From positions 1-20,532 of the IMG/VR virus record IMGVR_UViG_3300020430_000117: DNA of 20,532 nt; one strand, given 5' to 3'. Of the stretch, positions 6,736 through 20,532 are shown one piece after another. The first letter of the stretch is position 1. Each line of letters opens with the position of its first letter. Position numbers and translations under genes: made by a program. Under the pieces are notes generated by a model that was given only the letters and a program-made list of their open reading frames with translations, ran no database searches and was not told the DNA's origin. The DNA comes from a virus.

Positions 6736-6761
6736 AGTGTCAATCTAAGATCAATGTATGT

Positions 6762-6770: not shown

Positions 6771-6801
6771 GAATCAATAATGATGAGTATTTGTCACCAT
6801 A

Positions 6802-7023: not shown

Positions 7024-7049
7024 CTGATTAGTTCCTTCTCAGCGATTCA

Positions 7050-7077
7050 ATTCTATCATATGTATCATGATGAGCAA
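7050..7077 (-). promoter_or_regulatory. Possible sigma-70 promoter (TTGCTC-N16-TAGAAT)
   Basis: TGATAGAAT fits the extended -10 pattern, with TTGCTC at a 16-base spacing as a weak -35. It stands 26 bases before the ATG at 7023, in a gap of about 54 bases. The match is moderate, but the position and the similarity to other motifs in the window support it. Confidence 0.4.
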
Positions 7078-7514: not shown

Positions 7515-7538
7515 GTTTACTCACATGGTGTACGTCCT

Positions 7539-7567
7539 AGTATAAAACCCTCTCAACCAAAAGTCAA
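7539..7567 (-). promoter_or_regulatory. Sigma-70 promoter (TTGACT-N17-TATACT)
   Basis: TTGACT and TATACT each match 5 of 6 consensus bases at the ideal 17-base spacing. The -10 box is 25 bases upstream of the ATG at 7514. The spacer lies within a hairpin that probably terminates the upstream gene, so the promoter and the terminator share the same DNA. Confidence 0.6.
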
Positions 7568-7575
7568 GAGGTTTT
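7544..7575 (-). terminator. Hairpin overlapping a promoter, probable terminator
   Basis: On the minus strand an A-rich 5' arm (7563-7575) pairs with a T-rich 3' arm (7544-7557) over 13 bp. It has one bulged G, two G-U pairs and a 5-base loop. The arm ends in TTTT and directly follows the stop of the 7578-7949 gene. This is the usual shape of an intrinsic terminator whose T tract pairs with an upstream A tract. Confidence 0.55.
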
Positions 7576-7577
7576 AT

Positions 7578-7949
7578 TCAAGCATAACTCTTTATGTGTG
7601 TCACCACTTCTAAGATCCCATCACGGAATAATAGACTGCATTTTGGATATGGGGCATAGTATGCGTCCCACTTCTCTGGAGCGACCAATATCTTACCAGA
7701 GTATAAAAATGGCGAACATTTACCATGTTTACCATTCGGAATCCATTTAAATTGATTTGATCCACCACTCTCATAAAAATCATGAGTCCCTTCACAAGTA
7801 ATCTGCCACAACTTTGCAGCAGGATCTAAGAAGAATACTCTCATTGATGGTGATCCGTTGATAAACTTCACCGATAACGGTTTTCTCCACCACCCAGGAC
7901 CAATATCATAGTAATTCAGGATTGTATCGTACAATAAATTTTCGGTCAT
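7578..7949 (-). CDS. Hypothetical beta-rich protein, 123 aa
   Basis: This 123-residue protein begins MTENLLYDTILNYYDIGPG. It is rich in aromatic residues and beta-prone stretches (LSVKFINGSPSMRVFFLD, KLWQITCEG), with a KW-rich middle and a C-terminal LLFRDGILEVVTHIKSYA. No catalytic motif is evident. It starts 3 bases after the stop of the CDWxGxYL-family gene and is followed by a hairpin. The family is not recognised. Confidence 0.65.
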   Translation of the reverse strand: MTENLLYDTILNYYDIGPGWWRKPLSVKFINGSPSMRVFFLDPAAKLWQITCEGTHDFYESGGSNQFKWIPNGKHGKCSPFLYSGKILVAPEKWDAYYAPYPKCSLLFRDGILEVVTHIKSYA

Positions 7950-7952
7950 CGC

Positions 7953-8354
7953 TCATTCAGGATCTTTATTAAGGTAATACCCTCTCCAATCACATAATCT
8001 TATGCACTCTTCAAGGTCCCAGTGTACAGTTTTATCGGCAGTTTTACCCTTCACCCGATGTACCCTGGATGTAGTAAAATCGACAAAAGCATGGGTCGTT
8101 AATTCAAGATCCTCATTGATCATACTGATTTTGAAGTACTTCTTGTTGCGTTTTTCGCAATCAATAACAAATAGACCAATATCTAAGTTGTTATCAAGTT
8201 CTCTACGCTTAAACTTAGTGTCGAGAGTGACACCTTCAGTTGCCTCAATTCTATCAATACGCCAGTAATTCTCTTTTCGATAGTCATGAGTAAGGGCGAG
8301 GCATAATAACCCCACCCTGTTCAATATATTTCTTTTGCGAGCATCCCACTCCAT
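7953..8354 (-). CDS. Second member of the CDWxGxYL protein family, 133 aa
   Basis: This 133-residue protein begins MEWDARKRNILNRVGLLCL. Its features line up with the 4357-4830 product. An N-terminal LC-containing helix comes first, then an EG segment, KYFKISMI against KYHKIWEVI, THAFVD against CHAFIN, and LCDWRGYYL against NCDWAGAYL at the C-terminus. It therefore looks like a diverged paralog, shorter by about 24 residues. No known function. TATAAATC, a late-promoter-like octamer, lies only 2 bases before the ATG, too close to drive this gene. Confidence 0.7.
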   Translation of the reverse strand: MEWDARKRNILNRVGLLCLALTHDYRKENYWRIDRIEATEGVTLDTKFKRRELDNNLDIGLFVIDCEKRNKKYFKISMINEDLELTTHAFVDFTTSRVHRVKGKTADKTVHWDLEECIRLCDWRGYYLNKDPE

Positions 8355-8378
8355 AGATTTATATCATAGGTATATTAT

Positions 8379-8591
8379 CTATGCAGACTCTTCCCATACT
8401 TCTTTGTATTTGAATCTCTCCTTCAAGTCAAAGTACATGCGGTAAGTCTCTGTTTGAACATAGTAACCAGTCAGATCTTTGCCATCATCAGTCCAACCGT
8501 AACTAATGACACGCTCATCAATGTCTTGCAGATCTAGTTTTTTGGGTGTGTGCAGATAGTGATTGAACTTCTGATGCAAATTGACTGGCAT
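8379..8591 (-). CDS. Hypothetical protein, 70 aa
   Basis: This 70-residue protein begins MPVNLHQKFNHYLHTPKKL. The frame extends two codons upstream to a TTG; the ATG at 8591 has AGAGG ten bases before it and is preferred. The middle is beta-rich (ERVISYGWTDDGKDLTGYY) and the end is charged (KERFKYKEVWEESA). A TGTTAGAAT extended -10 candidate lies upstream. No known motif is visible. Confidence 0.65.
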   Translation of the reverse strand: MPVNLHQKFNHYLHTPKKLDLQDIDERVISYGWTDDGKDLTGYYVQTETYRMYFDLKERFKYKEVWEESA

Positions 8592-8618
8592 GGGCAAAGA
8601 CCTCTTAACTATGTTGAC

Positions 8619-8627
8619 ATTCTAACA
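8619..8627 (-). promoter_or_regulatory. Possible extended -10 promoter (TGTTAGAAT)
   Basis: TGTTAGAAT fits TGnTAnAAT and is 28 bases before the ATG at 8591. No good -35 is seen. The 11-base string GCATAGATAAT overlaps its upstream side and recurs near 8374-8384, before the next gene downstream. Confidence 0.35.
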
Positions 8628-8667
8628 TTATCTATGCGAAGTTAATGATTCCTTTGGGATCACTTAA

Positions 8668-8898
8668 TCATTCACCCAGATCAGTCAACGGACCCCAGCG
8701 ACCAGAGTCACCATCTTTACGATTGTCCAACTTATCAAAGATGTCATCAATAGTTTGCATTGTCTCAATGCTAGCGATCATCTCAGCAATAGTCTTACAT
8801 ACATGTGGTTTCTCACCACGAGCAGCAAATGCTAGTGCATTGCGAAGATTAGCTTCTGCCTCTTTTAGAGAGTCTTTAACTGATTCAGATAGTGCCAT
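8668..8898 (-). CDS. Helical hypothetical protein, 76 aa
   Basis: This 76-residue protein begins MALSESVKDSLKEAEANLR. It looks like an all-helical bundle (residues 3-27, 33-47 and 48-60) with a glycine-rich tail, GDSGRWGPLTDLGE. GGAG lies 5 bases before the ATG, and a well-formed sigma-70 promoter lies just upstream. It is therefore probably made early and independently of the oxygenase gene upstream. The family is not recognised. Confidence 0.7.
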   Translation of the reverse strand: MALSESVKDSLKEAEANLRNALAFAARGEKPHVCKTIAEMIASIETMQTIDDIFDKLDNRKDGDSGRWGPLTDLGE

Positions 8899-8918
8899 TA
8901 AAACTCCACGTTTTTACT

Positions 8919-8947
8919 ATTATAGCATCAAGTAAACCAAGTGACAA
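8919..8947 (-). promoter_or_regulatory. Sigma-70 promoter (TTGTCA-N17-TATAAT with TGC extension)
   Basis: TTGTCA matches 5 of 6 bases of the -35 box, and TGCTATAAT is a perfect extended -10, at the ideal 17-base spacing. The -35 box lies in the last codons of the oxygenase gene. The -10 is 20 bases upstream of the ATG at 8898. This is the best host-type promoter in the window. Confidence 0.75.
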
Positions 8948-10070
8948 TAGAATATCTTGTTCCTTTGATAACATCCATAATCTCATGCGGATACATGAAA
9001 TTAGCAGGGAATAGTATTACACTACCTGCTGCTGCACCAATTTGAACTTCCCGATTGAAGAATGCCATGTTGCCACCTTCATAATCATCGTTTAAATTTA
9101 TAGACATAGCAACAGTTCTTGGTTGTTCTTGAAAACTATCAGTGTGTTGTCTATAATATCCACCAGTCTCATATCTCAGCAGATCATATCCACTATCAGA
9201 CTTTAAGAAGCATGCAGGGAAGTCTTTGATATACTGTTGTGCAGCATCATTTGCCTTCTTGAAGATCATAGTATCAATCTTGCTGCGAATATCTTTATTC
9301 TTATTGATTATCTGTGGGGTAGATGTAGATATTATGTCACAGTTACGAACACTAGGGTTTTGAACGTTGTTAGAACTAACACCTGCTGGTGTCCAGTGCT
9401 CACAGTCCCGATATTCATCAAGAATCATCTTACATTCTTCTGATGTGAAGACATTATCGTAGACCTTGACATAATCTAGCAACTTATTCTCACCAGAGAT
9501 TGTTGTAGTGGTCTTCACCACATCCTCCTTATATCTTTGACCCTTATCAAAGTAGTATTGGAAGCAAGGACCATGCAGTCTAACATAATGCAAGAATACT
9601 TGTGAGCATGACTGTCCCTTAAAAGCATCTCTACCATGCTCACCAACCATACCTAGGTATAGCATAGCATCACCTGGACTCAAATCAATACACTTCTTCT
9701 CACCTGAAGGTGTGTAAATCCAAATAGTCCATGCTTCATCACACTCTAAGTTAATAGTGAGTGAGATCTCACACTGTGCTTTATCAACATGCCCTGGAAG
9801 AACATTACCATTCTTATACTCTCTGGCATAAGAATATGTCGGCAAAACAGATTCTCCAACCAGATCAGACACCTCTTGGTTCTTTGCAACCAAAAGTTCA
9901 ATGAATGGTTTGAATTCATACTTTGCATTACTTCCTGGAACCTGTGGGTCATCAGAAAGTTCATGAGTATTACAGTATTCTTTAAACTGTTTTGCTAATA
10001 TCTCTGCTCTAAATGGTTCTATAAAATTTGGTACAATAATATAATTATTGTCAATCAGTTGTTGGTTCAT
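8928..10070 (-). CDS. Two-domain 2OG-Fe(II) oxygenase, prolyl-4-hydroxylase-like
   Basis: This 380-residue protein contains two double-stranded beta-helix (cupin-like) domains. The C-terminal one resembles prolyl 4-hydroxylases. H309 and D311 (YYRQHTDSF), H362 (MYPHEIMDV) and R372 (KGTRYSIVTWF) form the expected Fe and 2-oxoglutarate binding set. The N-terminal domain also keeps a possible HxD, H94 and D96 (LPGHVDK), and a distal H145 (GEHGRDAF). Such enzymes hydroxylate protein, nucleic acid or sugar substrates using O2 and 2-oxoglutarate; the substrate here is unknown. Two intact-looking sites in one chain are unusual. It starts inside the end of the coiled-coil acidic protein gene (20-base overlap), near tail-fibre genes. 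Confidence 0.8.
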   Translation of the reverse strand: MNQQLIDNNYIIVPNFIEPFRAEILAKQFKEYCNTHELSDDPQVPGSNAKYEFKPFIELLVAKNQEVSDLVGESVLPTYSYAREYKNGNVLPGHVDKAQCEISLTINLECDEAWTIWIYTPSGEKKCIDLSPGDAMLYLGMVGEHGRDAFKGQSCSQVFLHYVRLHGPCFQYYFDKGQRYKEDVVKTTTTISGENKLLDYVKVYDNVFTSEECKMILDEYRDCEHWTPAGVSSNNVQNPSVRNCDIISTSTPQIINKNKDIRSKIDTMIFKKANDAAQQYIKDFPACFLKSDSGYDLLRYETGGYYRQHTDSFQEQPRTVAMSINLNDDYEGGNMAFFNREVQIGAAAGSVILFPANFMYPHEIMDVIKGTRYSIVTWFT

Positions 10071-11001
10071 TATCAGGGATTTCAGCGTCAGGAGTATCGG
10101 AATCGTCTTCTGAGATCATTTTCTCAATGTCATTGACGACTTGCTCCGTACTGTCTTCCTCAAATAATAACTCAAGACTGAACTCACTGTCAAGTACATC
10201 CATATCAATGTCACCAATTTGTTCATCAATGCCGATAATCTGATCACTGATGACACCACCATCTATCTGATCAAGAACATCATCAGTGTCAATATCCTCA
10301 GGTTTTACAATCTCTGCTTCTTCAACCTCAAAGAATGAATCATCTACAGCATCATCAAATAGGGATGGATCTACATTACCATCAAATACAGTCAGATTCT
10401 CATATCCAGCTTCAAACTGGAAGTTCTTCTCACTCTCGCTAATATTGTCCTGAATCTTCTCCTCACCATAGAAGAATTCCTCATGTGCTTGTGCAATGCG
10501 TTCATGAGTTCTATGAATATCTTCTTGAGATTGTGATATGATTTTACGCTCAATACCACTCATCTCATCCATTTGTTTGAAATGTTCCTGCTCTAACTTA
10601 GCCATCTGTGAGTCATGATCAGATGCTACAGCGCGAAGATTAGAATCATGCCTCTTCTGCATCTCCTCCATTTGACCTTCTAACTCTGCCATCGCCTCTT
10701 GCCAGGACAAAGATTCTGCTCTCGCTGCTTCTTCTGCCTTGCGCTGCTCTTCTTCTTGACGATCCTTCTCTTTATTAAAATGATCAACATAACGTTCGAT
10801 CATTGCACGAGTTGCAGGTGTATTAGGAACGGGAGAGTCATACTCTACCTCACCAGTTCCATCTTCAGTACCATTATCCTTCCACTGGATTGCCCACAGA
10901 TGTTCAATATCAGCAAAAGGCCAGTTATCTTCAGTAAAGAAGATACCTGTGCTATCAATTCTGATATACTTATCCGCCTCAATTAAGGTAAATTGTTTCA
11001 T
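10051..11001 (-). CDS. Coiled-coil protein with acidic C-terminus, tail-region type
   Basis: This 316-residue protein begins MKQFTLIEADKYIRIDSTG. The N-terminal 75 residues look like a compact domain, with FTEDNWPFADIEHLWAIQW. Residues 76-195 form a long charged coiled coil (RQEEEQRKAEEAARAES and onward). Residues 205-316 are extremely acidic and low in complexity, with repeated DxxDxxD patterns. From memory, proteins with this N-terminus occur in other cyanomyoviruses near tail-fibre genes. It overlaps the Cys-containing protein upstream by ATGA. A chaperone or fibre-assembly role is plausible but unproven. Confidence 0.7.
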   Translation of the reverse strand: MKQFTLIEADKYIRIDSTGIFFTEDNWPFADIEHLWAIQWKDNGTEDGTGEVEYDSPVPNTPATRAMIERYVDHFNKEKDRQEEEQRKAEEAARAESLSWQEAMAELEGQMEEMQKRHDSNLRAVASDHDSQMAKLEQEHFKQMDEMSGIERKIISQSQEDIHRTHERIAQAHEEFFYGEEKIQDNISESEKNFQFEAGYENLTVFDGNVDPSLFDDAVDDSFFEVEEAEIVKPEDIDTDDVLDQIDGGVISDQIIGIDEQIGDIDMDVLDSEFSLELLFEEDSTEQVVNDIEKMISEDDSDTPDAEIPDNEPTTD

Positions 11002-11330
11002 TCGTCCACCTCTTTTACATCTGCAGGAATTACTTTTTGGTCTCTTGCCTGATGCAGCATTTGTGCTGCTGCAGATAAGACATCGATATTACTTGAGTTT
11101 GCCTTCACCATCTCATTCCTAAATGACTCCACACCAGCACTTGTTGAACGCTGTTGTTGAGAGTTTTCGATAAGTAACATGGGCATCCATGTAACTGCAC
11201 ATCCCCATTCATCTACTGGTTGTCCAGTGTTAGGATTAGTTCCCCTAATTTGAGTGTACCAAGAACATTCAAGTCCGATACAATCTTTACCAATTAATGG
11301 ACAAAAATTACCAGGTTTAATCTGTGCCAT
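10998..11330 (-). CDS. Conserved Cys-containing phage protein, 110 aa
   Basis: This 110-residue protein begins MAQIKPGNFCPLIGKDCIG. Four Cys (C10, C17, C22 and C44) within the first 45 residues could bind zinc or an iron-sulphur cluster. The pattern is CPLIGKDCIGLECSWYTQIRG, followed later by GCAVTWMPMLLIEN. The remaining 60 residues are helical and polar. From memory it is a widespread hypothetical family of cyanomyoviruses beside tail-fibre genes. It is coupled by ATGA to the next gene. Function is unknown. Confidence 0.75.
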   Translation of the reverse strand: MAQIKPGNFCPLIGKDCIGLECSWYTQIRGTNPNTGQPVDEWGCAVTWMPMLLIENSQQQRSTSAGVESFRNEMVKANSSNIDVLSAAAQMLHQARDQKVIPADVKEVDE

Positions 11331-11351
11331 AACAAATCAAGTATACCGTAT

Positions 11352-11930
11352 TTAGTTCAATGTACAGATTATAACATCCACATAATTTACCGCCATATTA
11401 ACTCCATCACTAAATGTTGTGGTAATTTGAGAAGTTCCGCTAAATGGGTGTCCGTGAGAACCACCACCGCCAGCAGGAACCATGGTGCCAGTTGATGTAC
11501 TTCCACTCACTGTACGAGCACCAGTATTACTAAATGGTGTTGCACCAGAACCTCCAGTGGGTCCAAGACCTGATGGGTGACTGTGCTCTGGCAATTGTGA
11601 TAATGCTAATGTATGATTACCAATCATTGTACCTTGTCCTGGTACAACATTCACTACCATTTGTGTACTAATACCGACAGTAACATTACCACTACTAGAA
11701 GATAGGACTGAAGAGAACGCTGTGGTTCCACCCTGTCCTCCACCATTTCCATTCACAACTCTCAGTGCTTTATCTCCACCCATTGACGTATCTTGAGACC
11801 ATCCTGTAGGTGCTGCTGCTTGGTAAAAGAACTTCTTAGTACCAGCAGGATACATCCAATAAAATGAATCTATCTTATTATTTGGATCAACTAAGTCAAA
11901 TAAGATCCCTGTCCCTGTTAAACGTGCCAT
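11352..11930 (-). CDS. Tail-collar / short tail fibre-type protein, copy B
   Basis: This 192-residue protein begins MARLTGTGILFDLVDPNNK. FYQAAAPTGW at residues 35-44 and HTLALSQLPEHSH at about 105-117 are typical of phage tail-collar domains, as in the receptor-binding end of T4 gp12. A Gly/Ser/Thr-rich stretch follows, then GGGGSHGHPFSG, and the end is VNYVDVIICTLN. The two HxH pairs are the residues that coordinate metal in gp12-like trimers. It should be a virion surface component involved in host binding. It is a paralog of the protein encoded just upstream, about 1 base away, so this is a tandem duplication. Confidence 0.8.
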   Translation of the reverse strand: MARLTGTGILFDLVDPNNKIDSFYWMYPAGTKKFFYQAAAPTGWSQDTSMGGDKALRVVNGNGGGQGGTTAFSSVLSSSSGNVTVGISTQMVVNVVPGQGTMIGNHTLALSQLPEHSHPSGLGPTGGSGATPFSNTGARTVSGSTSTGTMVPAGGGGSHGHPFSGTSQITTTFSDGVNMAVNYVDVIICTLN

Positions 11931-11931
11931 A

Positions 11932-12495
11932 TCAGGAGAACGAGCAGATGATTACATCAACATATTGAATTCTTAAATCAATACTACCAGAACCAGTGGC
12001 ATTTAGGGTTACTTGACCAGAGAACGGGTGATTGTGTGCCTGACCAATACCTTGAGGAGAGTTTACACCACCAGTTTGATTACTACCTGGTGTTCTAAAA
12101 CTACTACCACCAGAGGATGCATTTGCAGTTCCCCCAAGACCAGAGTTATGAGTATGATCTGGAATTTCAGCAGTTGTTAAAGTATGACCGCCAACAGTAC
12201 CACTTACAGGTGCTGTTGCACTAAAGCTGACCGCAAGAGTAGATGTAGATGCTGGGAATACAGTACTAAAGTTACTACCACCAGCACCTGAGGTGTTACC
12301 ATAACCAAATCCACCACCTGCACCATTAACCAAACGCAGTGCTTTATCATTGTGTGCAGTATTTTTTACCCATCCAGTGGGTGCTGCTGCCTGATAAAAT
12401 ACACTTTGTGTTCCTTGGTCCAGAACAGAATACTTAGAAGATAATGATGTACCGTCACTAAAAGTAACCCCAGTGGCGGTTAATTGTGCTGCCAT
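11932..12495 (-). CDS. Tail-collar / short tail fibre-type protein, copy A
   Basis: This 187-residue protein begins MAAQLTATGVTFSDGTSLS. It shares FYQAAAPTGW, DKALR(L/V)VNG, HTLTTAEIPDHTH, an HNHPFSG pair and a C-terminal YVDVIICSFS with the downstream copy. That is the layout of a phage tail-collar domain. The central Gly/Ser/Asn-rich part differs most between the copies and probably carries variable receptor-binding loops. A late-type promoter lies 28 bases upstream, and GGAAG lies about 13 bases before the ATG, consistent with late expression of a structural gene. Confidence 0.8.
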   Translation of the reverse strand: MAAQLTATGVTFSDGTSLSSKYSVLDQGTQSVFYQAAAPTGWVKNTAHNDKALRLVNGAGGGFGYGNTSGAGGSNFSTVFPASTSTLAVSFSATAPVSGTVGGHTLTTAEIPDHTHNSGLGGTANASSGGSSFRTPGSNQTGGVNSPQGIGQAHNHPFSGQVTLNATGSGSIDLRIQYVDVIICSFS

Positions 12496-12522
12496 CTTAC
12501 AACCATACTTCCTTTATTTACT

Positions 12523-12530
12523 TATTTATC
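12523..12530 (-). promoter_or_regulatory. T4-late-type promoter (GATAAATA)
   Basis: GATAAATA matches 7 of 8 bases of the T4 late consensus and lies 28 bases upstream of the first tail-collar gene. Its first bases overlap the stop codon of the upstream gene. The position before structural genes agrees with late, gp55/gp33-dependent transcription as known for T4-like phages, including cyanophages. Confidence 0.55.
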
Positions 12531-12804
12531 AACTACATTTAATCCAGAATCCATCACCAGTAAACTCCCAACCATCATCAAGAACTGCTTGGTAGTTCTC
12601 ATATTTATCTTTGAACCCATCAGGTACATAAGGTGGCCACTGTTCTCTGTAGAATTGCTGTGTCCATCCATCATTGTATGGGGATGTTGCCTGCACTTGA
12701 TTCATGAGATCAGGGTAGATCTGACGACGTGGTTCATCACTACCCACCTCACGAACATAAACTGTCTTGCCACCATCAGGTGACTCATAGATTTTAGCGG
12801 TCAT
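12529..12804 (-). CDS. Hypothetical protein, 91 aa
   Basis: This 91-residue protein begins MTAKIYESPDGGKTVYVRE. The first 25 residues look like a beta hairpin (KIYESPDGGKTVYVREVG). A proline- and aromatic-rich middle follows (WTQQFYREQWPPYVPDGF), then a C-terminal WEFTGDGFWIKCS. A KIYESPDGGKTVY-like start is familiar from small cyanophage proteins. It overlaps the upstream gene by 11 bases. No function is known. Confidence 0.7.
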   Translation of the reverse strand: MTAKIYESPDGGKTVYVREVGSDEPRRQIYPDLMNQVQATSPYNDGWTQQFYREQWPPYVPDGFKDKYENYQAVLDDGWEFTGDGFWIKCS

Positions 12805-12976
12805 TGTTTTTGTTAAACTGTTTACGACACTTTTTGAGTTCCTTCATCTCATCTTTGATCATCTGATAGGCATCCTCAGGATCGAGTCTACCACCAAGTT
12901 CCAAAGCGCAGACAACTTCGACTCTAGTTCCAAAGTGTTTGAGTGCTTCTTCAAAACAATTTAGTTCTTCATACAT
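12794..12976 (-). CDS. Small helical protein downstream of talC, 60 aa
   Basis: This 60-residue protein begins MYEELNCFEEALKHFGTRV. It is helical throughout, with two charged ends (DEMKELKKCRKQFNKNNDR). It starts 2 bases after the talC stop, so both are on one transcript. From memory, similar small proteins occur in other cyanomyoviruses. It lacks the C-terminal Cys pair of CP12, so it should not be mistaken for that regulator. Confidence 0.7.
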   Translation of the reverse strand: MYEELNCFEEALKHFGTRVEVVCALELGGRLDPEDAYQMIKDEMKELKKCRKQFNKNNDR

Positions 12977-12978
12977 AA

Positions 12979-13653
12979 TCAGAATACAGTTACTTCAGGT
13001 GTATTAAGTGCCTCAAGAGATGCTTCATAATCACGTTGGAAGATAGCAAGTCCCTCACGAGTCAACACACTGTCATACATTGCATTGAATACTTTAGATG
13101 GCATCGTAACAATGTCAGCGCCATATGTGAAGCAACGGGAGACATGATGTGCATCACGCAGAGATGCAGCAAGCACTTCAGTCTTCATGCCATGGACAGA
13201 ACGACAGGTTGCGATAGCACGAACCAATTCAACACCACTGAAGGAGTTATCATTACAACGTCCAACAAAAGGAGACAGATAGGTTGCACCTGCCTTCATT
13301 GCCATCACTGCTTGTGCAACAGAGAAGACAAGAGTTACGTTGGTTTTGATCCCCAGTTTGGTCAAATCTTTGCAGACCATAAGACCATCAGGAGTGCATG
13401 GGAGTTTGATAGTGGCAGGAGCACCAAACTTCTCAGCAAGGCGAACACCATCTTCATACATCTCACCTACGGTGCCAACAACTTCCATGCTGACATCAGT
13501 CACACCAATATCAATCATCTCCTGATATACTTCCTCAGGATCACGACCTGCCTTACGAATCAGGGAGGGGTTAGTAGTAACTCCGTCAACGAGTCCAGAT
13601 GCAAAGTATTTACGGACTTCGTTAGTATCTGCAGTATCAAGGAAGATCTTCAT
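12979..13653 (-). CDS. talC: Transaldolase, FSA/TalC type
   Basis: This 224-residue protein should exchange a dihydroxyacetone unit between fructose 6-phosphate and an aldose phosphate in the non-oxidative pentose phosphate pathway. Asp6 lies in MKIFLDTAD, GVTTNPSLI is at residues 24-32, and the Schiff-base Lys83 sits in TIKLPCTPDG. SPFVGRCND and LAASLRDAHH are further family motifs. At 224 residues it matches the short TalC/FSA subfamily rather than the 315-residue TalA/B class. TalC is one of the most common auxiliary metabolic genes of T4-like cyanophages. It would work with gnd (5668-6735) to feed nucleotide synthesis during infection. It overlaps the upstream coiled-coil mini-gene by ATGA. 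Confidence 0.95.
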   Translation of the reverse strand: MKIFLDTADTNEVRKYFASGLVDGVTTNPSLIRKAGRDPEEVYQEMIDIGVTDVSMEVVGTVGEMYEDGVRLAEKFGAPATIKLPCTPDGLMVCKDLTKLGIKTNVTLVFSVAQAVMAMKAGATYLSPFVGRCNDNSFSGVELVRAIATCRSVHGMKTEVLAASLRDAHHVSRCFTYGADIVTMPSKVFNAMYDSVLTREGLAIFQRDYEASLEALNTPEVTVF

Positions 13654-13796
13654 TTGTCACCAAGGGAATAGTTATCAAGAGAATTATATTTTGTAACTGA
13701 CAATTTGTCAATGATTTTTTCGAGTTCTCGCACACGAGACTCCAATTCAGCGATACGCTCATCAAGCGTAGTAAATTCAAAGTCGTAGTTTGTCAT
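13650..13796 (-). CDS. Coiled-coil mini-protein upstream of talC, 48 aa
   Basis: This frame encodes 48 residues beginning MTNYDFEFTTLDERIAEL. Residues 11-32 form regular heptads (LDERIAELESRVRELEKIIDKL), so a parallel coiled-coil dimer is likely. The ATG overlaps the stop of the 26-residue frame upstream and the TGA overlaps the talC start, so it is coupled to talC on both sides. It resembles SlyX-like short coiled coils in general form, but I do not assign it. Confidence 0.6.
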   Translation of the reverse strand: MTNYDFEFTTLDERIAELESRVRELEKIIDKLSVTKYNSLDNYSLGDK

Positions 13797-13873
13797 TTGT
13801 AGATAAAGGGATCTCTGTTTCTGTTCCTGAATCTCTGTATATAGTCTCTGATCTTGTTGATCAATTTTCTCAT
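13793..13873 (-). CDS. Very basic mini-protein, 26 aa
   Basis: This frame encodes 26 residues beginning MRKLINKIRDYIQRFRNR. It contains nine Arg or Lys residues and forms one amphipathic helix. ATGA overlaps at both ends link it to its neighbours, which is the main support. A helix of this kind could bind RNA, DNA or a membrane surface. It may also be only a translational relay between the genes on each side. Confidence 0.4.
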   Translation of the reverse strand: MRKLINKIRDYIQRFRNRNRDPFIYK

Positions 13874-14178
13874 AGTTTGACTCCAGCGGTCACATTTGCT
13901 CTACGAGTATAGTTTTGAAGAGTGCCTTCCTGTAAGCACTTAAGATGCCAACGGGTTACCTTCAAGCACCCTTCATACTCTAGAGCAGTAATGAAGTTAG
14001 CACCAAGGGGTTCTTTAAGAACACTAGTATGCAAGCCAAATCTAGTTTTTTTAATGTAAAACGCATCATCAATCCATTCAACATCTTCTGGAATGTTTTG
14101 CTCAATCGTGGGATTAGATCCCAAAGAATCCTGTAAAGTTGGAATTCTCTCAGTGATCTTCGTCTGTTGTTCCGTCAT
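13870..14178 (-). CDS. Hypothetical protein, 102 aa
   Basis: This 102-residue protein begins MTEQQTKITERIPTLQDSL. The frame extends further upstream, but the ATG at 14178 limits the overlap with the upstream gene to 29 bases and gives a normal N-terminus. The second half is beta-rich (FYIKKTRFGLHTSVLKEP, then FITALEYEGCLKVTRWHLK) and ends QNYTRRANVTAGVKL. From memory, similar FGLHTSV-containing proteins occur in other marine cyanophages. Function is unknown. Confidence 0.65.
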   Translation of the reverse strand: MTEQQTKITERIPTLQDSLGSNPTIEQNIPEDVEWIDDAFYIKKTRFGLHTSVLKEPLGANFITALEYEGCLKVTRWHLKCLQEGTLQNYTRRANVTAGVKL

Positions 14179-14383
14179 CTTTTTTATTGAATCCAAATGG
14201 TGCTGATTGTTCTTCCTTCTCTGCACGGAGTTTATGTGCAAGAGCACAGACAGTCTCCATCACTTTAAGAGTGTCCTCAGTAGTAGAACCCTCTGGCATG
14301 TTACGGAGAACAATATCAAATAGAGGGAAGAACTGATTAGATGCTTCTAATACTTCTTCAGGAGTCAGAGGTGCTTTGTTCAT
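14150..14383 (-). CDS. Conserved-looking helical protein, 77 aa
   Basis: This 77-residue protein begins MNKAPLTPEEVLEASNQFF. It is a helical protein (PEEVLEASNQFFPLFDIVL and DTLKVMETVCALAHKLRAE) with an acidic flexible tail. From memory, homologs with the FFPLFDIVL and DTLKVME strings are common in cyanomyoviruses. It overlaps the genes on both sides by 26 and 29 bases. No activity is known. Confidence 0.7.
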   Translation of the reverse strand: MNKAPLTPEEVLEASNQFFPLFDIVLRNMPEGSTTEDTLKVMETVCALAHKLRAEKEEQSAPFGFNKKDDGTTDEDH

Positions 14384-14519
14384 TCTTAAATGGGTGTGGT
14401 TTGTTCAATTTGGTGGCGACTGATGAGATATGAAGTTGCTTGAGTGCTGCAACAACCTCAGGAGTTTCTTCCCACTCCCAAGTCTCACCACCTCTACCAG
14501 TAAAAGTTCGTTTAGTCAT
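14358..14519 (-). CDS. Small protein, 53 aa
   Basis: This 53-residue protein begins MTKRTFTGRGGETWEWEET. The frame opens ten codons earlier, but the ATG at 14519 has AGGAG 5 bases before it, which decides the start. A beta-like N-terminus (TFTGRGGETWEWEE) is followed by a helix (EVVAALKQLHISSVATKL). It is the first gene after the modification cassette on this strand. The family is familiar from cyanophages but has no known function. Confidence 0.7.
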   Translation of the reverse strand: MTKRTFTGRGGETWEWEETPEVVAALKQLHISSVATKLNKPHPFKNEQSTSDS

Positions 14520-14524
14520 ATACT

Positions 14525-14529
14525 CTCCT
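14525..14529 (-). promoter_or_regulatory. Ribosome binding site (AGGAG) fixing the start at 14519
   Basis: AGGAG, 5 bases before the ATG at 14519, is a strong Shine-Dalgarno site. It shows that the start is the internal ATG rather than the earlier ATG at 14549. It also marks the point where the cassette's chain of overlapping genes ends. Confidence 0.6.
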
Positions 14530-14545
14530 GACTGTCTGGATTTTA

Positions 14546-15259
14546 TCACATATCTATGGATTGTGCAATCTGTTTTGCAATTATTTCATTAGTCACAACT
14601 CCAGAGTGAACAAGGTCTCTGGACTTATCCACCTGCTTAATGTAATCACAATCTATTGCCTTCCTATTTGCAGCATACAGTGTAAAGTCATAGTATTTTG
14701 TATTACTCCACATCATCTGTGCAGTCAATCTTGTCATTCTTAAATGTTCTTCATTGTGATGATCAAATCTCCTCCATGATTTACCAAGTCCACCAATATC
14801 CTCTGTCCATTGACCACAATGAACTACAGCATTATTCAAATATAGTGGACATCTTTGAGATGAAGACCATGAGAACACCACTGCAAGTGGTTCAGGATAC
14901 AATGCCTTCAACTTGGCAGAGTTATGTAGAGCAAACATGGGAGATGATCCAGGTGCTCCCATGTTTATCACTGGACGACCAGTTATTCCACTCAATTTTG
15001 CAGCAATAGTTCCACTTAACTCACAACCAATACCAAACACATAAGAGCATCCAAATAGAACAATGCTTTTATGCCATGGTATGCGATCAAACTCCTGAGT
15101 TCTATATCCCATAGAGTTTAATTTATATGTCACACCAACATTTCTATATCGCCAATCAGATGGTTGTGACTTAAGATTCTTCTTGAATAATTCTCTACTA
15201 TCCTGATCAAACCAAGCACCACCTTGTTCAGGTCTATCTTCAAGTTCGTAGATCTTCAT
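14546..15259 (-). CDS. SGNH/GDSL-like hydrolase
   Basis: This 237-residue protein begins MKIYELEDRPEQGGAWFDQ. VLFGCSYVFGIG at residues 67-78 fits block I of SGNH hydrolases, with Ser72 as the nucleophile. The Gly of block II may be G101 (INMGAPGSS). DLVH at 215-218 near the C-terminus fits the Asp-x-x-His of block V. These enzymes remove acyl groups from sugars or lipids, and some transfer acyl groups. It has no signal peptide. The gene follows the carbamoyltransferase by an ATGA overlap, so it may trim or modify the same product (inference). The block III Asn is not obvious, so the call is moderate. Confidence 0.65.
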   Translation of the reverse strand: MKIYELEDRPEQGGAWFDQDSRELFKKNLKSQPSDWRYRNVGVTYKLNSMGYRTQEFDRIPWHKSIVLFGCSYVFGIGCELSGTIAAKLSGITGRPVINMGAPGSSPMFALHNSAKLKALYPEPLAVVFSWSSSQRCPLYLNNAVVHCGQWTEDIGGLGKSWRRFDHHNEEHLRMTRLTAQMMWSNTKYYDFTLYAANRKAIDCDYIKQVDKSRDLVHSGVVTNEIIAKQIAQSIDM

Positions 15260-16680
15260 GAGAATACCTTGACACCATGTTTACTGGACCAACGATTAGC
15301 ATCAGTCTCATCATTTACTATCGGTTCACCTTTAATATTCAAACTAGTATTCAATAAAACTGGTACACCAGTCTCTTTACCCCAACGCATCAAAAGATCA
15401 TGCAATCTTGGTGCATCAGACTTCTTCACTGTCTGTACTCTACTAGTTCCATCAACATGAATTACACCACTCAATAAGTTTGGTGCCTTACACTTAACTG
15501 CATACTGCATGAATGGACTCTCCACCATATCATTGTGCATGTCAAAGTATTTTGAAGCATATTCTAATGGCACCACTGGTGAGAATGGTCTGAATTCTTG
15601 ACGCTTCTTTATCTCATTTACTCTGTCTTTAATACCTGGACTTGTAGGATCTGCTAATAAACTTCTAGCACCCAGTGCCCTTGGTCCAAATTCTGCTCTT
15701 CCTCTTGCAAGTCCACATATTTTATGATCTTTTAGATAATCAACAATAGAATTATTTGAATGATGATGTAGGATCTTATATCCCAGGTATGGTGAGAATT
15801 TAATCTTCTTCTTTTTATGAGCTAAAACTGCACCAATAGCAGAACCAGCATCACCAGGGGCAGGCATAATCCAGACATTTTTAAAATAATCATATGCCAA
15901 ACCATTTGCAGCACAATTCAATGCACATCCACCCATGAAGACTAAATTATCAGAACCAGTCAAAGTCTTTGCCTTCCTCAATACTTCACTGAATAATACC
16001 TCATATACATGTTGAGTTGCTGCAGCAATATCTACATCAGTTGCATCTGGTTGCCAGTCCATGCAACCGCGATGAAGATTACGCTTTGATATAAAGTCAA
16101 TACCAATCAATTCATTTAGTATCTTTGAAGTAAGTTTGTCTCTATCTCCAAAAGAGGACAATGCCATCAAGATATATTCTTCTTCATTTGGTTTTAACCC
16201 AATTCTCTGGGTCATGGCAGAATACCACAAACCAATACTATTGGGATACTTCAGTTCATACAACAAATAGATGCGATTACCTATCGCCTTCCAAATACTA
16301 AGGGTTTGAAACTCACCAATAGCATCAATAACAAGGATTGCACAATTATTGAATTTACTTGTGTAATACCCAGCACAAGCATGACTGTAGTGATGATCAA
16401 TAAATTTATGCTTACAATTAAAATACTTTGTGAAGTTATCAATGAATGGTCCTTGACCTGCTTTTATCTGCCTCCACCTCTTACGAAGAGGATTCTCATA
16501 CCAGCAAATTAAGTCTGGTTTACCCCACTTCAAACCATGAGATATTAGATCATCGTTGAGAACAGGATCATTCTTTACTCTACTAAACCTCTCACTCTCA
16601 CTAGCAAACATAAGGGAGTCATTAGAAAATACTGCAAGAGCAGCATTATGACTATTTGATGATATCCCCCATGTTATCAT
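15256..16680 (-). CDS. Carbamoyltransferase, NodU/CmcH/TobZ family
   Basis: This 474-residue protein should transfer a carbamoyl group from carbamoyl phosphate, through carbamoyl-AMP, to a hydroxyl of a substrate. SHNAALAVF starts at about residue 10. DHHYSHACAGY at 95-105 holds the metal-binding His pair in the N-terminal Kae1-like domain. MGGCALNCAANG at 249-260 and PAPGDAGSAIGA at 273-284 follow. ARGRAEFGPRALGARSLLADP at 325-345, EFRPFSP and the end motif GEPIVN are family signatures of the C-terminal domain. Known relatives act on Nod-factor sugars and antibiotics. Cyanophages carry such genes with unknown targets. It overlaps the radical SAM gene by 29 bases. Confidence 0.88.
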   Translation of the reverse strand: MITWGISSNSHNAALAVFSNDSLMFASESERFSRVKNDPVLNDDLISHGLKWGKPDLICWYENPLRKRWRQIKAGQGPFIDNFTKYFNCKHKFIDHHYSHACAGYYTSKFNNCAILVIDAIGEFQTLSIWKAIGNRIYLLYELKYPNSIGLWYSAMTQRIGLKPNEEEYILMALSSFGDRDKLTSKILNELIGIDFISKRNLHRGCMDWQPDATDVDIAAATQHVYEVLFSEVLRKAKTLTGSDNLVFMGGCALNCAANGLAYDYFKNVWIMPAPGDAGSAIGAVLAHKKKKIKFSPYLGYKILHHHSNNSIVDYLKDHKICGLARGRAEFGPRALGARSLLADPTSPGIKDRVNEIKKRQEFRPFSPVVPLEYASKYFDMHNDMVESPFMQYAVKCKAPNLLSGVIHVDGTSRVQTVKKSDAPRLHDLLMRWGKETGVPVLLNTSLNIKGEPIVNDETDANRWSSKHGVKVFS

Positions 16681-17503
16681 ACCGATTCTCCCAATAACTG
16701 ACAGGTAATGTTGGATCTTGTTTAATGTAAGGTTCAGTCTTGTTAGCTGGACACATAGAACAGAACGACTCGTCCTCTCTATTCAAAAATTCATTTAATT
16801 CTTCGTCAGTACAATCTGGTCTCAATGGTTTATATTCTAAGTAAGGATCCCATTTTTGACTCAGATTATACTTGTTTGCTTGCATAGGAAGATATGCTAG
16901 TGCAGGGCACTTCCATAGGTTCCCTTCATGTATCTGAAGAGCGTGTTTTGATACGCACTTCTCCCAACTTAATCTAGGATTATTATCCTCATATGGCATA
17001 ATTTGATTGCCATACCCTTTATATTGTGGTATCCAATAAGTATTTGTAAAGTCCCAGAATTCTACATGAACTCCTAGGTCATGCTTCCAGGATTTTGCTA
17101 ATTCATACCCTCTCTTAAACTTCCTTACATATCCTTTATGTTTTGTGCTGTGAATAGATATTGCTAAGTTTGTTTTTGTTGCTAGTAATGCTTTAGGAAG
17201 TCCAGGATGATTATGCAAAAAACTGGCATTTGATACCAGATCTATTTTAACTGCTGGGTCTGGATACATCATCCTGACCAGATACACAATCTCCGTTAAT
17301 TCTTTGTTTAGTGTTGGTTCTCCACCTAAAATTACAAATGTATCAGGAACAACTCTCTGACTCCATTTATATAGCCAATCTCTAGCAGTATTATACGATA
17401 AGTTACCAGAGTGTCCGTGATTAGAGTAATGTGAACAACCCTCACATGTAAAATTACATGCGTGAGTTACATGTAGTTCTATCTGCTTAGTGCTAAATTG
17501 CAT
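16652..17503 (-). CDS. Radical SAM protein with a second Cys cluster
   Basis: This 283-residue protein has CNFTCEGC at residues 16-23, the CxxxCxxC site for the 4Fe-4S cluster that cleaves S-adenosylmethionine. GGEPTLN at 60-66 is the SAM-binding GGE motif. Cys at 183, 199, 231, 248 and 251 in the C-terminal part could bind an auxiliary cluster of SPASM or twitch type. Such enzymes commonly modify peptides or make cofactors by radical chemistry. The substrate is unknown. It overlaps the carbamoyltransferase start by 29 bases and the upstream oxygenase by 11, so the three are probably made together. Confidence 0.82.
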   Translation of the reverse strand: MQFSTKQIELHVTHACNFTCEGCSHYSNHGHSGNLSYNTARDWLYKWSQRVVPDTFVILGGEPTLNKELTEIVYLVRMMYPDPAVKIDLVSNASFLHNHPGLPKALLATKTNLAISIHSTKHKGYVRKFKRGYELAKSWKHDLGVHVEFWDFTNTYWIPQYKGYGNQIMPYEDNNPRLSWEKCVSKHALQIHEGNLWKCPALAYLPMQANKYNLSQKWDPYLEYKPLRPDCTDEELNEFLNREDESFCSMCPANKTEPYIKQDPTLPVSYWENRYDNMGDIIK

Positions 17504-18014
17504 AATAGTTGAAATTGATAACTATTCTCCTATAGTCATCTGTACATGATGTTCCAGTGTGCATCAAGGTGGCAGGGAATTTGACAAATCTATTTGCCAC
17601 ACTCTCTACCTTAGTTCCGTCTTCAAACAGAGTGTATCCATCATTAGTATTTACATAGTATATACCAGTCATCATATCATCTGCATGAGGACCAAAGTCA
17701 CAATGAAATGCCCAGTCAAATACAACTAGTTCTTCAGTCTGAGTAATTGCATTTGCTTTTATTCTAACAATCGCACTCATATCCTCCTTATCAACTATTG
17801 GTTCTATAAGATTATACGCATTACTAATAATATGATGCTTTGAGTAAATTAGATGAATATACTGAGAATGACCATCTCCAGGATAATTTATGCCAGCATT
17901 AAATATCCATGCACATGAGTTAGCAATATCACCTTGATCATAATTACCTGTCCAGTAATTATATAATCGATCATGTACCTCTGCGTCTAAGTAATCATCA
18001 ATAATCTCAATCAT
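17493..18014 (-). CDS. 2OG-Fe(II) oxygenase-like protein, copy B
   Basis: This 173-residue protein begins MIEIIDDYLDAEVHDRLYN. FHCDF at 103-107 gives the H104-x-D106 pair. H152 (LMHTGTS) supplies the distal His, and R162 or R163 (YRRIVINFNY) binds 2-oxoglutarate. The strand MTGIYYVNTNDGYTLFEDG lies between them. This is the standard Fe-binding set of small phage 2OG oxygenases. It is a close paralog of the gene immediately upstream, sharing MTGIYY(V/I)NTNDGYTLFEDG, SVANRFV and RR(I/L)(V/L)INFN. The copies overlap by ATGA. Likely a hydroxylase; the substrate is unknown. Confidence 0.8.
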   Translation of the reverse strand: MIEIIDDYLDAEVHDRLYNYWTGNYDQGDIANSCAWIFNAGINYPGDGHSQYIHLIYSKHHIISNAYNLIEPIVDKEDMSAIVRIKANAITQTEELVVFDWAFHCDFGPHADDMMTGIYYVNTNDGYTLFEDGTKVESVANRFVKFPATLMHTGTSCTDDYRRIVINFNYYAI

Positions 18015-18535
18015 AAGTATTCGCAGGTGGTAAAGTTAAAGTTGATCAACAACCTACGTCTGGTGTCTGTACAGGTAGTTGCCGTATGCTTTGTTGTACA
18101 AGGAAACACAACAAACCTATTTGCAACACTATCACACTTTTGTCCATCTTCAAACAGAGTGTATCCATCATTTGTATTGATGTAGTATATACCTGTCATC
18201 AAATCTTTAGGGAAATCCGTATGAAATCCATCCTTGAATACCATCAATTCAGGAGTCTGTAGCATACAATTTGTTTTGATTCTGGCAATTGATGTCATCC
18301 CCGCCTTATCAATCAAAGGTTGAAGTAAATGAAATGCTTTTGGAACCAAAATATAATTTGCAGCAAATACTAGGGATGTAAAGTGGAAGTGTCCATCATT
18401 TTTTAGAGTGCATCCATCAGAATATAACCAGACACAAGAACCCTCCAAAGTTCCATCATCCATCTCACTATTGTAAAATGCACGAATGACTTCATAATCT
18501 TCTGGACTCAAAAAGTCATCATAAACTCTAATCAT
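18011..18535 (-). CDS. 2OG-Fe(II) oxygenase-like protein, copy A
   Basis: This 174-residue protein begins MIRVYDDFLSPEDYEVIRA. FHTDF at 104-108 gives H105 and D107. The distal H150 lies in TKHTATT, and R160 or R161 follow in RRRLLINFNF. The core strand and loop are nearly identical to copy B, while the first 100 residues have diverged. That suggests duplication followed by change in substrate recognition. It overlaps the unknown protein upstream by 8 bases. Small oxygenases of this kind are frequent in T4-like cyanophages, where their targets have not been defined. Confidence 0.8.
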   Translation of the reverse strand: MIRVYDDFLSPEDYEVIRAFYNSEMDDGTLEGSCVWLYSDGCTLKNDGHFHFTSLVFAANYILVPKAFHLLQPLIDKAGMTSIARIKTNCMLQTPELMVFKDGFHTDFPKDLMTGIYYINTNDGYTLFEDGQKCDSVANRFVVFPCTTKHTATTCTDTRRRLLINFNFTTCEYL

Positions 18536-19061
18536 CGATATAATCAGTAGATTTGAGCATCTCTACAGCTTCAGCAAATGTCTTTGAGGGAATATGTAGA
18601 GATAAGCATCTTCGATTAACTATACCTGGTTTTGTAGGAATAATCGCGTATGGTTTAGACGTATCAAGGAGATATGCATCCCCAGGTTTTGCCATGAATC
18701 GACGACCCTTCTTCAAATATCCATCATAAAATACGGCACCTTCAGATTCAGTGTTATCTTGAATGGGATAATAGAATTGGGTAATACATTGATCAGTAGC
18801 GATATAAAAATCAATCACTACTTCACCCTCACCATAACTGTGTGCAGGGATTTCATGATTTACTTCCATTAGAGAGAATTTACATTCATCTCTATAGTTC
18901 CTTGGAATTACCTGAAGTAAATCCTCATCATTTGTAGTATGCACATCCCAATACTGCATACCTTTGAATCCTATGGGACTATCCATCCCATATTCAATTT
19001 GTTTATTCTTTTTGTTGTAATAATCAATTACAAACTTCTCATTCAATTTATGAAAAAACAT
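18528..19061 (-). CDS. Unknown protein, possibly cupin-fold, 177 aa
   Basis: This 177-residue protein begins MFFHKLNEKFVIDYYNKKN. The ATG at 19061 has AGGA 6 bases before it and is preferred; an earlier ATG at 19094 lies inside the HNH gene. The middle reads as beta strands: EIPAHSYGEGEVVIDFYIAT, then ITQFYYPIQDN, then MAKPGDAYLLDT and RRCLSLHIPS. That order resembles a double-stranded beta-helix, and its neighbours are oxygenases of that fold. However, the full Fe-binding HxD...H set is not evident, so it may be an inactive or non-iron relative. The function is unknown. Confidence 0.6.
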   Translation of the reverse strand: MFFHKLNEKFVIDYYNKKNKQIEYGMDSPIGFKGMQYWDVHTTNDEDLLQVIPRNYRDECKFSLMEVNHEIPAHSYGEGEVVIDFYIATDQCITQFYYPIQDNTESEGAVFYDGYLKKGRRFMAKPGDAYLLDTSKPYAIIPTKPGIVNRRCLSLHIPSKTFAEAVEMLKSTDYIDD

Positions 19062-19067
19062 ACCAAT

Positions 19068-19071
19068 TCCT
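19068..19071 (-). promoter_or_regulatory. Ribosome binding site (AGGA) favouring the start at 19061
   Basis: AGGA, 6 bases before the ATG at 19061, supports that start over the in-frame ATG at 19094, which has no such site. The site overlaps the stop of the HNH gene, consistent with coupled translation. Confidence 0.45.
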
Positions 19072-19546
19072 AAATGTAACTGTATTCCCTCCATTCAGGG
19101 ACATTAGATTCTGCTAGATCGATTGCAACTGTGTTGTATGGTGCTCTTGGTTGCTTCCTAAGTTTTAGTTTAGTCTGCTCAAGTAATTTATCACTCTTCT
19201 TGACATTACATGAAGAACATGCTACAACCAGATTTTCCCATGTATCTTGCCCACCCTTGCTCCTTGGGATTACATGGTCAATAGTGAGTTTAGTTGTTGC
19301 CCCACAATATTGACAAGAATTCTTATCTCTCTTATAAATCTGACTCCTAGTTGGACGGTTGTTCATAATACTCCTAACAGGTATTCTAATGTAATTCAAC
19401 AATCTAACAACCCTTCCAGATAAAACCTGAACCTTATCCTTTAGAACTAAAATTACCGCCCTCTTCCAATTTGTAAAGTTGATTGGTTCATAACTTGAAT
19501 TAAGAACTAATATTGTCTGATTTGGTTGTATCTTAAGATGTTCCAT
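19070..19546 (-). CDS. HNH endonuclease
   Basis: This 158-residue protein begins MEHLKIQPNQTILVLNSSY. CQYCG at residues 78-82 and CSSC at 110-113 form the zinc site. TIDHVIPRSKGGQDTWENL at 88-106 holds the catalytic Asp90/His91 and Asn105, and NVKKSDK follows. The N-terminal 60 residues (VLNSSYEPINFTNWKRAV) match the cyanobacterial and phage-type HNH proteins, not a classical group I intron enzyme. It probably cleaves DNA, as a homing or DNA-processing nuclease. It has its own sigma-70 promoter and starts the run of cassette genes downstream. Confidence 0.85.
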   Translation of the reverse strand: MEHLKIQPNQTILVLNSSYEPINFTNWKRAVILVLKDKVQVLSGRVVRLLNYIRIPVRSIMNNRPTRSQIYKRDKNSCQYCGATTKLTIDHVIPRSKGGQDTWENLVVACSSCNVKKSDKLLEQTKLKLRKQPRAPYNTVAIDLAESNVPEWREYSYI

Positions 19547-19567
19547 ACTGGCAAGGGTATTGTGGAC

Positions 19568-19597
19568 ATTATATCACCGATACATTCTATCTGACAA
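19568..19597 (-). promoter_or_regulatory. Sigma-70 promoter for the HNH gene (TTGTCA-N18-TATAAT, TGA extension)
   Basis: TGATATAAT is a perfect extended -10, in which the TGA is also the stop codon of the 19574-19807 gene. TTGTCA lies 18 bases further upstream. The -10 is 22 bases before the ATG at 19546. It resembles the promoter at 8919-8947, which uses the same -35 hexamer, and may drive the nuclease and oxygenase genes early. Confidence 0.65.
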
Positions 19598-19807
19598 GTC
19601 TAAAGAAAACAGGATCTCTTCTATAGTACCGTGAATACCATCTGATTTTTGCAAAATTTCCTCTTTTTTTCTTGATAGATTCATATCTCGCAAAATATGT
19701 GGATTCTCTTGCAACCAGGAGTATTCGTCTGGTTGAATGTCACTTAACTGACCGCTGTTTATCTTTGATACTATACTAAAGTATTTAATCCTGTCAGAAG
19801 CTCTCAT
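19574..19807 (-). CDS. Hypothetical protein, 77 aa
   Basis: This 77-residue protein begins MRASDRIKYFSIVSKINSG. It is mostly helical, with QPDEYSWLQENPHILRDM in the middle and a charged segment (LSRKKEEILQK) before an acidic C-terminus ending DLSDRMYR. Its start overlaps the stop of the upstream oxygenase-like gene by ATGA. No motif is recognised. It lies between two enzyme genes of the cassette. Confidence 0.65.
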   Translation of the reverse strand: MRASDRIKYFSIVSKINSGQLSDIQPDEYSWLQENPHILRDMNLSRKKEEILQKSDGIHGTIEEILFSLDLSDRMYR

Positions 19808-20532
19808 TTTTTTGATGGGTCCATAAAATCAACAACAATAACACACCTATAATACTTATTCGCGATCACTTTTGGTGGCATAACTGGTTGATGATTGATA
19901 TGCGAATGATGAATAAGTAAAGAATTCTCATCACCTGGAAGAATAATCTCCCTGTCCTCATTCTCAATTAGTGTACCATACATCCTTGACGGATTATTAA
20001 GATAATATATCATTCCCAAGTCAAAGTTATCATGACTATGACTGTTCCTGTAAGTTATATCCAACTCATTTCTATAATCCTCTGAATTGGTTCCCTTCAT
20101 CCGTTTTGCCCAGTATGACTGAACCTGATAATTCTTTATGTTTGGATTATTTGTAATCTCTGCATAATTGTGCAAATGCTTTTTTACCATACTAAAAAAC
20201 ACATACCAACTTGTATAGTGCCTCAACTTCCTATGTGGTAATTCATTTGTTGCCTCTACAGATCTATCCCATTTATTTTTACTGACCCTAAACTCATCAT
20301 CAATGTCATCCAAAAGATTATCCATGTGATGACGACTGATCATATTGTATGCTCTGTAGATTGTATTACCACAGAAGTCAAAACTCTCTACATTCCTATT
20401 GTCATGCCAATAGGGATCAATAGAAGACTCCTGAGGTACTACTCTTGTTATTCTATAGTATTCATCTTTTATAATCTCATCTAATCTTTCGGAGGGACTT
20501 ACACCTGCTCTATTTGCAAGATTTTCCAGAAG
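19804..20532 (-). CDS. 2OG-Fe(II) oxygenase-like protein, 5' end missing (window edge)
   Basis: The frame stays open from its stop at 19804 to the right edge, giving 242 residues with no stop. The coding-like stretch upstream of the first internal ATG (20343) shows that the true start lies outside the window. Counted from the edge, HSHDNFDLGMIYYLNN (about 165-180), ILPGDENSLLIHHSHINH (197-214) and YYRCVIVVDF (227-236) form a beta-helix pattern with His, a distal His cluster and Arg. This matches small phage 2OG oxygenases in outline. The exact Fe ligands are uncertain (H165 or H167/D168, one of H208-H214, R229). The N-terminal part is helical and polar. Confidence 0.6.
   Translation of the reverse strand, partial: LLENLANRAGVSPSERLDEIIKDEYYRITRVVPQESSIDPYWHDNRNVESFDFCGNTIYRAYNMISRHHMDNLLDDIDDEFRVSKNKWDRSVEATNELPHRKLRHYTSWYVFFSMVKKHLHNYAEITNNPNIKNYQVQSYWAKRMKGTNSEDYRNELDITYRNSHSHDNFDLGMIYYLNNPSRMYGTLIENEDREIILPGDENSLLIHHSHINHQPVMPPKVIANKYYRCVIVVDFMDPSKK

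Follow-up and report, generated by a model that had tools for sequence, protein, structure and literature searches.

A conserved tailoring operon of a T4-like cyanophage pairs a short carbamoyltransferase with a putative SGNH protein

What could a cyanophage make with a packed run of oxygenases, a radical SAM enzyme, a carbamoyltransferase and an SGNH-like protein? The question is raised by a 20,532-bp IMG/VR virus fragment (the window, meaning the whole stretch of DNA analysed), on which nine co-directional minus-strand genes form a single packed run at 14546-20532 (Table 1). In the order of transcription they are oxC, a 77-aa ORF, HNH, P0006, oxA, oxB, radical SAM, CarT and SGNH. Counted from the 14546 side, neighbouring genes overlap by 4, 29, 11, 4, 8 and 25 bp, are then separated by the sole gap in the run (27 bp, between HNH and the small ORF), and overlap again by 4 bp. 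A sequence-only reading had described a co-oriented overlapping enzyme run here, and all the genes it named are indeed present on the minus strand, with overlaps of 4-29 bp. Beyond that reading, the run contains the HNH gene, the small ORF and a third, degenerate DSBH protein (P0006). CarT, radical SAM and HNH have strong domain support, oxA and oxB moderate support; the family search gave no match for SGNH, P0006 and oxC.

Table 1. Genes of the cassette in the window and the support for their assignment.
Feature	Coordinates	Strand	Support
SGNH hydrolase/transferase-like, P0001, 237 aa, DUF6071-like lineage, CarT partner	14546..15259	-	AlphaFold, Foldseek, invariant residues, profile
Short NodU/CmcH-type carbamoyltransferase CarT, P0002, 474 aa	15256..16680	-	PF16861, PF02543, PHROG 1601, motifs
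Twitch-type radical SAM enzyme rSAM1, P0003, 283 aa	16652..17503	-	PF04055, seven invariant Cys
2OG-Fe(II) oxygenase family oxB, P0004, HCD..H..R	17493..18014	-	PHROG 274 9e-39; weak PF13640
2OG-Fe(II) oxygenase family oxA, P0005, HTD..H..R	18011..18535	-	PHROG 274 1.5e-37; weak PF13759/PF13640
DSBH/cupin-fold protein P0006, apparently degenerate 2OG oxygenase	18528..19094	-	AlphaFold, Foldseek
HNH endonuclease P0007	19070..19546	-	PF01844 2.1e-17
Small conserved ORF, 77 aa	19574..19807	-	conserved in 26 loci
oxC, P0008, cut by window edge	19804..20532	-	56-86% identity in 28 loci

The gene order of the cassette is kept across 34 IMG/VR loci (L002-L035, some of them near-duplicates). The dN/dS ratio is 0.03-0.18 for the cassette genes and about 0.3 for the small ORF, which indicates purifying selection. 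Taken with the kept gene order, this excludes chance, and the cassette recurs as a set that looks like a co-transcribed tailoring run, as had been supposed. It turned out that CarT is not constant. It is missing in 10 of the 34 loci (L024-L033), where radical SAM is directly followed by SGNH; these loci retain the radical SAM, oxygenase and SGNH genes, and no CarT copy was found elsewhere on their fragments, which are short. The number of oxygenase copies varies from 1 to 3. The HNH gene comes and goes, with no match between oxC and rSAM in L018-L033, and is probably a mobile passenger. The stable core is therefore radical SAM, oxC and SGNH, and CarT is dispensable in one clade. Thus, of the co-occurrence expected in relatives, the common order held and the constant presence of CarT did not; the genes are present and absent independently in part. 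In the relatives, the run starts upstream of oxC with two more oxygenases of the 2OG type and another twitch radical SAM enzyme. This second radical SAM gene overlaps oxC, and its product is about 52% identical to rSAM1. This indicates that the operon reaches past the edge of the window.

One relative lies on a 119-kb contig (G001) that carries psbA (Pfam-confirmed) and psbD-, zwf-, gnd- and talC-like frames. This photosynthesis and pentose-phosphate gene content points to a T4-like cyanophage; a Gp23 search for phage typing gave no match anywhere. The window itself carries gnd (5668-6735) and talC (12979-13653), the usual cyanophage pentose-phosphate genes, and talC borders the cassette region. 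Two paralogous tail-collar-like proteins are encoded at 11352-12495 and lie near the cassette in nearly all loci. The cassette itself lacks a glycosyltransferase gene, and the closest one in the window, of the GT11 type (fucosyltransferase-like), lies about 12 kb away at 1346-2464. One locus binned in a Rhodobacteraceae MAG (L055, PAHT02000089.1) holds the whole cassette; since it also has talC and tail genes, it is a phage contig, either misbinned or integrated. In L005, NPPY-type N6-adenine methyltransferase-like genes and a helicase lie just upstream of the cassette (2-3894). Among isolated phages, no relative was found for SGNH, P0006 or oxC. The cassette is thus a real conserved tailoring operon of known families. 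The earlier statement that this exact set has no described pathway agrees with the open-licence PMC literature, where we found none.

By family and motif criteria, CarT is a NodU/CmcH-type carbamoyltransferase, as had been proposed. It matches PF16861 (4.7e-52) and PF02543 (3.1e-36) far above the cut-offs (Carbam_trans_N 125.9 and Carbam_trans_C 176.4 bits against curated values of 24 and 27), and it also matches PHROG 1601. The Kae1-like metal ligands, HHxxH (H96, H100) and D277, are invariant or nearly so. The C-terminal EFGPRALGxRS is kept, with E330 and G332-R339 conserved and mapped to TobZ by motif. CarT shares both Pfam halves, the metal-ligand and GPRALG motifs and the expected reaction with the NodU/CmcH/TobZ O-carbamoyltransferases and with WapO of the Pseudomonas LPS core, but it is short (474 aa compared to about 550-700) and has a dedicated SGNH partner. 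It is about 45% identical to the nearest bacterial enzyme; its nearest plasmid-borne relatives in bacteria are those of Mesorhizobium (45%) and Streptomyces (43%), and it is at most about 35% identical to the long cyanophage 'Nol' enzymes. On the 119-kb contig of L005, three more carbamoyltransferase-family genes were seen besides the cassette CarT (L176, L177); one consists of an N-terminal half alone, and a full-length one stands by sugar-nucleotide-type genes. In L053 (7549-9795), CarT is encoded by two ORFs with its halves exchanged, the C-half before the N-half, and the radical SAM gene that comes next overlaps them.

The AlphaFold model of P0001 (pLDDT 93) predicts an SGNH fold. At E<=0.001, Foldseek returned 32 PDB chains, for the most part SGNH/GDSL enzymes, with moderate TM-scores of 0.30-0.58; TesA, CE2 acetyl esterases and the crocagin hydrolase CgnD were matched at probability 1.0. 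The SGNH-like blocks I and V noticed earlier are borne out, because S72 (block I) and D215-x-x-H218 (block V) are invariant in 34/34 sequences. The Asn of the block III GxND is absent; the region reads WSSSQR, of the W(S/T)xxxR type, as in DUF6071 relatives. P0001 falls below the Pfam cut-off for DUF6071 (PF19547), and the link was made by profile-profile comparison, in which its profile matched DUF6071 proteins with 96.7% probability over 78 columns. P0001 and DUF6071 share the GCS block I, the PG(S/G)S block and the W(S/T)xxxR block, and both adjoin a short CarT.

We also assessed this pairing outside the cassette. A search seeded with CarT in place of radical SAM gave 61 loci, which form 23 groups when clustered at 85% identity. 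About 13 of the 23 groups have SGNH-like proteins, from several clusters, near CarT, and about 14 have radical SAM (counted by motif and adjusted by eye for L006, L054 and L120, with the zinc-finger false positives L102 and L109 dropped). The SGNH-CarT pair is repeated in several phage lineages. In the SAG virus AG-345-D19, one contig reads SGNH-SGNH-CarT-radical SAM, and another carries a split CarT followed by radical SAM. In one clade, CarT stands alone between apparent primase and helicase genes. The Mesorhizobium and Streptomyces plasmid CarTs directly adjoin a DUF6071 protein. Among 399 evenly drawn Pseudomonadota genomes, three carry DUF6071, and the short CarT (E<=1e-110) occurs in exactly the same three, adjoining DUF6071 in 3/3. 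Were the two genes independent, an overlap of this kind would have a chance of about 1e-7 (1 in C(399,3)), but since two of these loci resemble one another the number of independent events is below three. Concordantly, neither gene was found in 378 Hyphomicrobiales genomes; the Cyanobacteriota sample had no DUF6071. Two bacterial SGNH-CarT pairs flank a polyketide synthase, and a third (L202) stands with a DegT/StrS aminotransferase and WbsX glycosyltransferases. Bacterial relatives of rSAM were dropped as a pointer to CarT, since 0/12 genomes that carry them had a match at the short-CarT level (best 1.4e-80, to long-type enzymes). This indicates that rSAM and short CarT are uncoupled in those bacteria. 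That the short CarT goes together with an SGNH protein from the DUF6071 lineage is newly seen here. CarT with its esterase-like partner, a pair also present in soil bacteria, is the best-supported working part of the cassette.

It had been proposed that the oxygenases create a hydroxyl that CarT caps. As an obligate pathway this is unsupported, because CarT is absent in 10/34 loci that keep the oxygenases and outside the cassette it is strictly partnered by the SGNH protein rather than by an oxygenase. The radical SAM site and the two HxD...H...R oxygenases of the same proposal were recovered. rSAM1 matches PF04055 (1.6e-8), and its CxxxCxxC cysteines (C16/C20/C23) and C183, C199, C248 and C251 are invariant in 25 sequences. 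Judged from this pattern, in which CxxxCxxC is joined by the four Cys expected of one auxiliary cluster, rSAM1 belongs to the twitch subgroup; its closest PDB relative is 7wzv. The oxA and oxB proteins match 2OG oxygenase Pfam models only below the cut-offs and PHROG 274 at about 1e-38, and HxD..H..R was found by inspection in the window copies and in their relatives. PHROG 274 and several cyanophage records label this family, with relatives in 245 phage records, 'DNA endonuclease V/denV'. Given the HxD..H..R motifs, this label is probably a spread error. P0006 is modelled as a double-stranded beta helix (pLDDT 84.5) with Foldseek matches to NO66, MINA53 and proline 3-hydroxylase. In the window copy, HTD is changed to HSY and H149 to Y, while HTD and H are kept in 19/21; dN/dS is 0.17-0.18 between this copy and its relatives, compared to 0.05 among those relatives. 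The lost iron ligands and the raised dN/dS suggest that P0006 is here probably inactive or repurposed. oxC has no family match and only an oxygenase-like HxH with a later H as conserved motif; as a candidate 2OG oxygenase it was put to profile-profile comparison with the oxygenases, which gave no match. At 8928-10070, the window also encodes a double 2OG/prolyl-4-hydroxylase-like protein, for which the PHROGs label 'ferrochelatase' (phrog_3531) looks wrong; we take PHROG 3531 to be a mis-annotated oxygenase family.

What, then, is tailored? The cassette probably adds a decoration to a sugar, another surface molecule or a small molecule. We favour, without regarding it as established, an operon that builds or edits a glycan decoration, and we give this a little less than an even chance. 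The target would be a host outer-membrane sugar changed during infection or a virion-borne sugar. The 2OG oxygenases would hydroxylate the acceptor, and the two twitch radical SAM enzymes would oxidise or epimerise an unactivated carbon. The SGNH-CarT pair would carbamoylate the glycan, with SGNH as the dedicated partner of CarT on the same acceptor, where it may remove or move an acyl group or present the acceptor. The data themselves show the gene content, its conservation, the SGNH-CarT pairing and the recurring radical SAM company; that the substrate is a glycan, in what order the reactions run and what they serve is inferred from genomic company and precedent. The closest radical SAM protein of an isolate, in S-SCSM2R (43%), has glycosyltransferases, a sugar epimerase, a DegT-type aminotransferase and an annotated inosamine amidinotransferase as neighbours. 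S-CAM1 and S-CAM3 have a CarT neighbourhood of the kind seen at the full-length copy on the 119-kb contig; its genes are annotated there as ADP-heptose genes and lie next to tail fibres. LPS heptose is carbamoylated by wapO (PMC8005017), and in pelagimyophages the regions for host recognition acquire cassettes with radical SAM genes next to glycosyltransferases (PMC7029224). Like the LPS and host-recognition islands of cyanophages and pelagiphages (S-SCSM2R, S-CAM1/3, P-SSM2, pelagimyophages), the cassette lies by tail-fibre genes, and those islands likewise mix radical SAM, 2OG, CarT and sugar genes in varying proportions; no description was found of its particular gene set and order or of the SGNH-CarT pairing. 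The order kept in 34 loci, the independent recurrence in AG-345-D19, the SGNH and radical SAM company in the CarT groups, the co-occurrence of CarT with DUF6071 and the L202 locus also count for this reading. The lack of a glycosyltransferase inside the cassette, the dispensability of CarT in a sub-lineage, the lone CarT among replication-type genes and the polyketide synthase neighbours count against it.

A serious rival, which we nevertheless consider rather unlikely, is tailoring of a peptide or virion protein by a RiPP-like logic: radical SAM and 2OG enzymes would act on a phage peptide or on the neighbouring tail proteins, CarT would carbamoylate a side chain, and SGNH would cleave or edit the product. 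The P0001 model matches CgnD, the hydrolase that releases the peptide core in crocagin biosynthesis, a pathway that also has a carbamoyltransferase and a dioxygenase (PMC10070186), and the NodU-like CarT StdF acts on a peptide lysine (PMC13174530). The clustering of a dioxygenase, an SGNH-fold hydrolase and a carbamoyltransferase (CgnC, CgnD, CgnI) is indeed similar, and the two tail-collar-like genes adjoin the cassette in nearly all loci. However, the radical SAM relatives sit with glycosyltransferases, no precursor peptide was recognised in the cassette, and it differs from the crocagin cluster in its radical SAM genes. The two conserved small ORFs do not look like RiPP precursors: they are conserved over their full length and lack a variable Cys/Ser/Thr-rich core. 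A multi-step viral pathway to a new carbamoylated natural-product-like molecule, or to a new virion or host-surface modification, is slightly more doubtful still; its gene set would be two radical SAM enzymes, at least four 2OG oxygenases and the SGNH(DUF6071-like)-CarT pair as an undescribed two-subunit or two-step carbamoylation unit.

It is quite improbable that the run is a collection of independent morons, accumulated in a hypervariable region by tail-fibre genes and serving no single pathway. The loss of CarT in 10/34 loci, the 1-3 oxygenases, the variable HNH gene and the lone CarT of another clade fit such a collection, but the overlapping frames, the strict order, the strict SGNH-CarT pairing in bacteria and phages and the recurrent radical SAM company do not. 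Phage DNA, another of the substrates named by the sequence-only reading, is by far the least probable. Oxygenases or other enzymes would make hydroxymethyl bases for CarT to cap, and a 5hmC carbamoyltransferase does exist in phage-like contigs (PMC8670742). CarT belongs to the same superfamily, but the two share 25% identity, and the GPRALGARS of CarT is GPRALCNTT in the 5hmC enzyme; the equivalents of TobZ 421/423, placed by counting within the motif, are G and R as in other CarTs and C and T in the 5hmC enzyme. In addition, no hydroxymethylase partner was found: PF00303 (thymidylate synthase/dCMP hydroxymethylase) was detected in 0/8 related contigs of 51-160 kb, which are possibly incomplete. 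DNA modification is therefore disfavoured.

Carbamoyltransferases and oxygenases are frequent yet unexplained accessory genes of cyanophages, and one paper files the cyanophage CarT under pyrimidine synthesis (PMC9146016). Given the perfect pairing in the genome sample and the twitch radical SAM company in unrelated phages, the short CarT with SGNH offers a defined pair of genes for expression and assay and a first clue to what DUF6071 proteins may do. A surface decoration, should that be the product, would matter for superinfection exclusion and host range in marine Synechococcus. Two further marine phage islands (L041 and L043, at about 6000-17000) hold at least four radical SAM genes and an SGNH-like protein, together with amidinotransferase-like, TauD-like and AMP-ligase-like genes.
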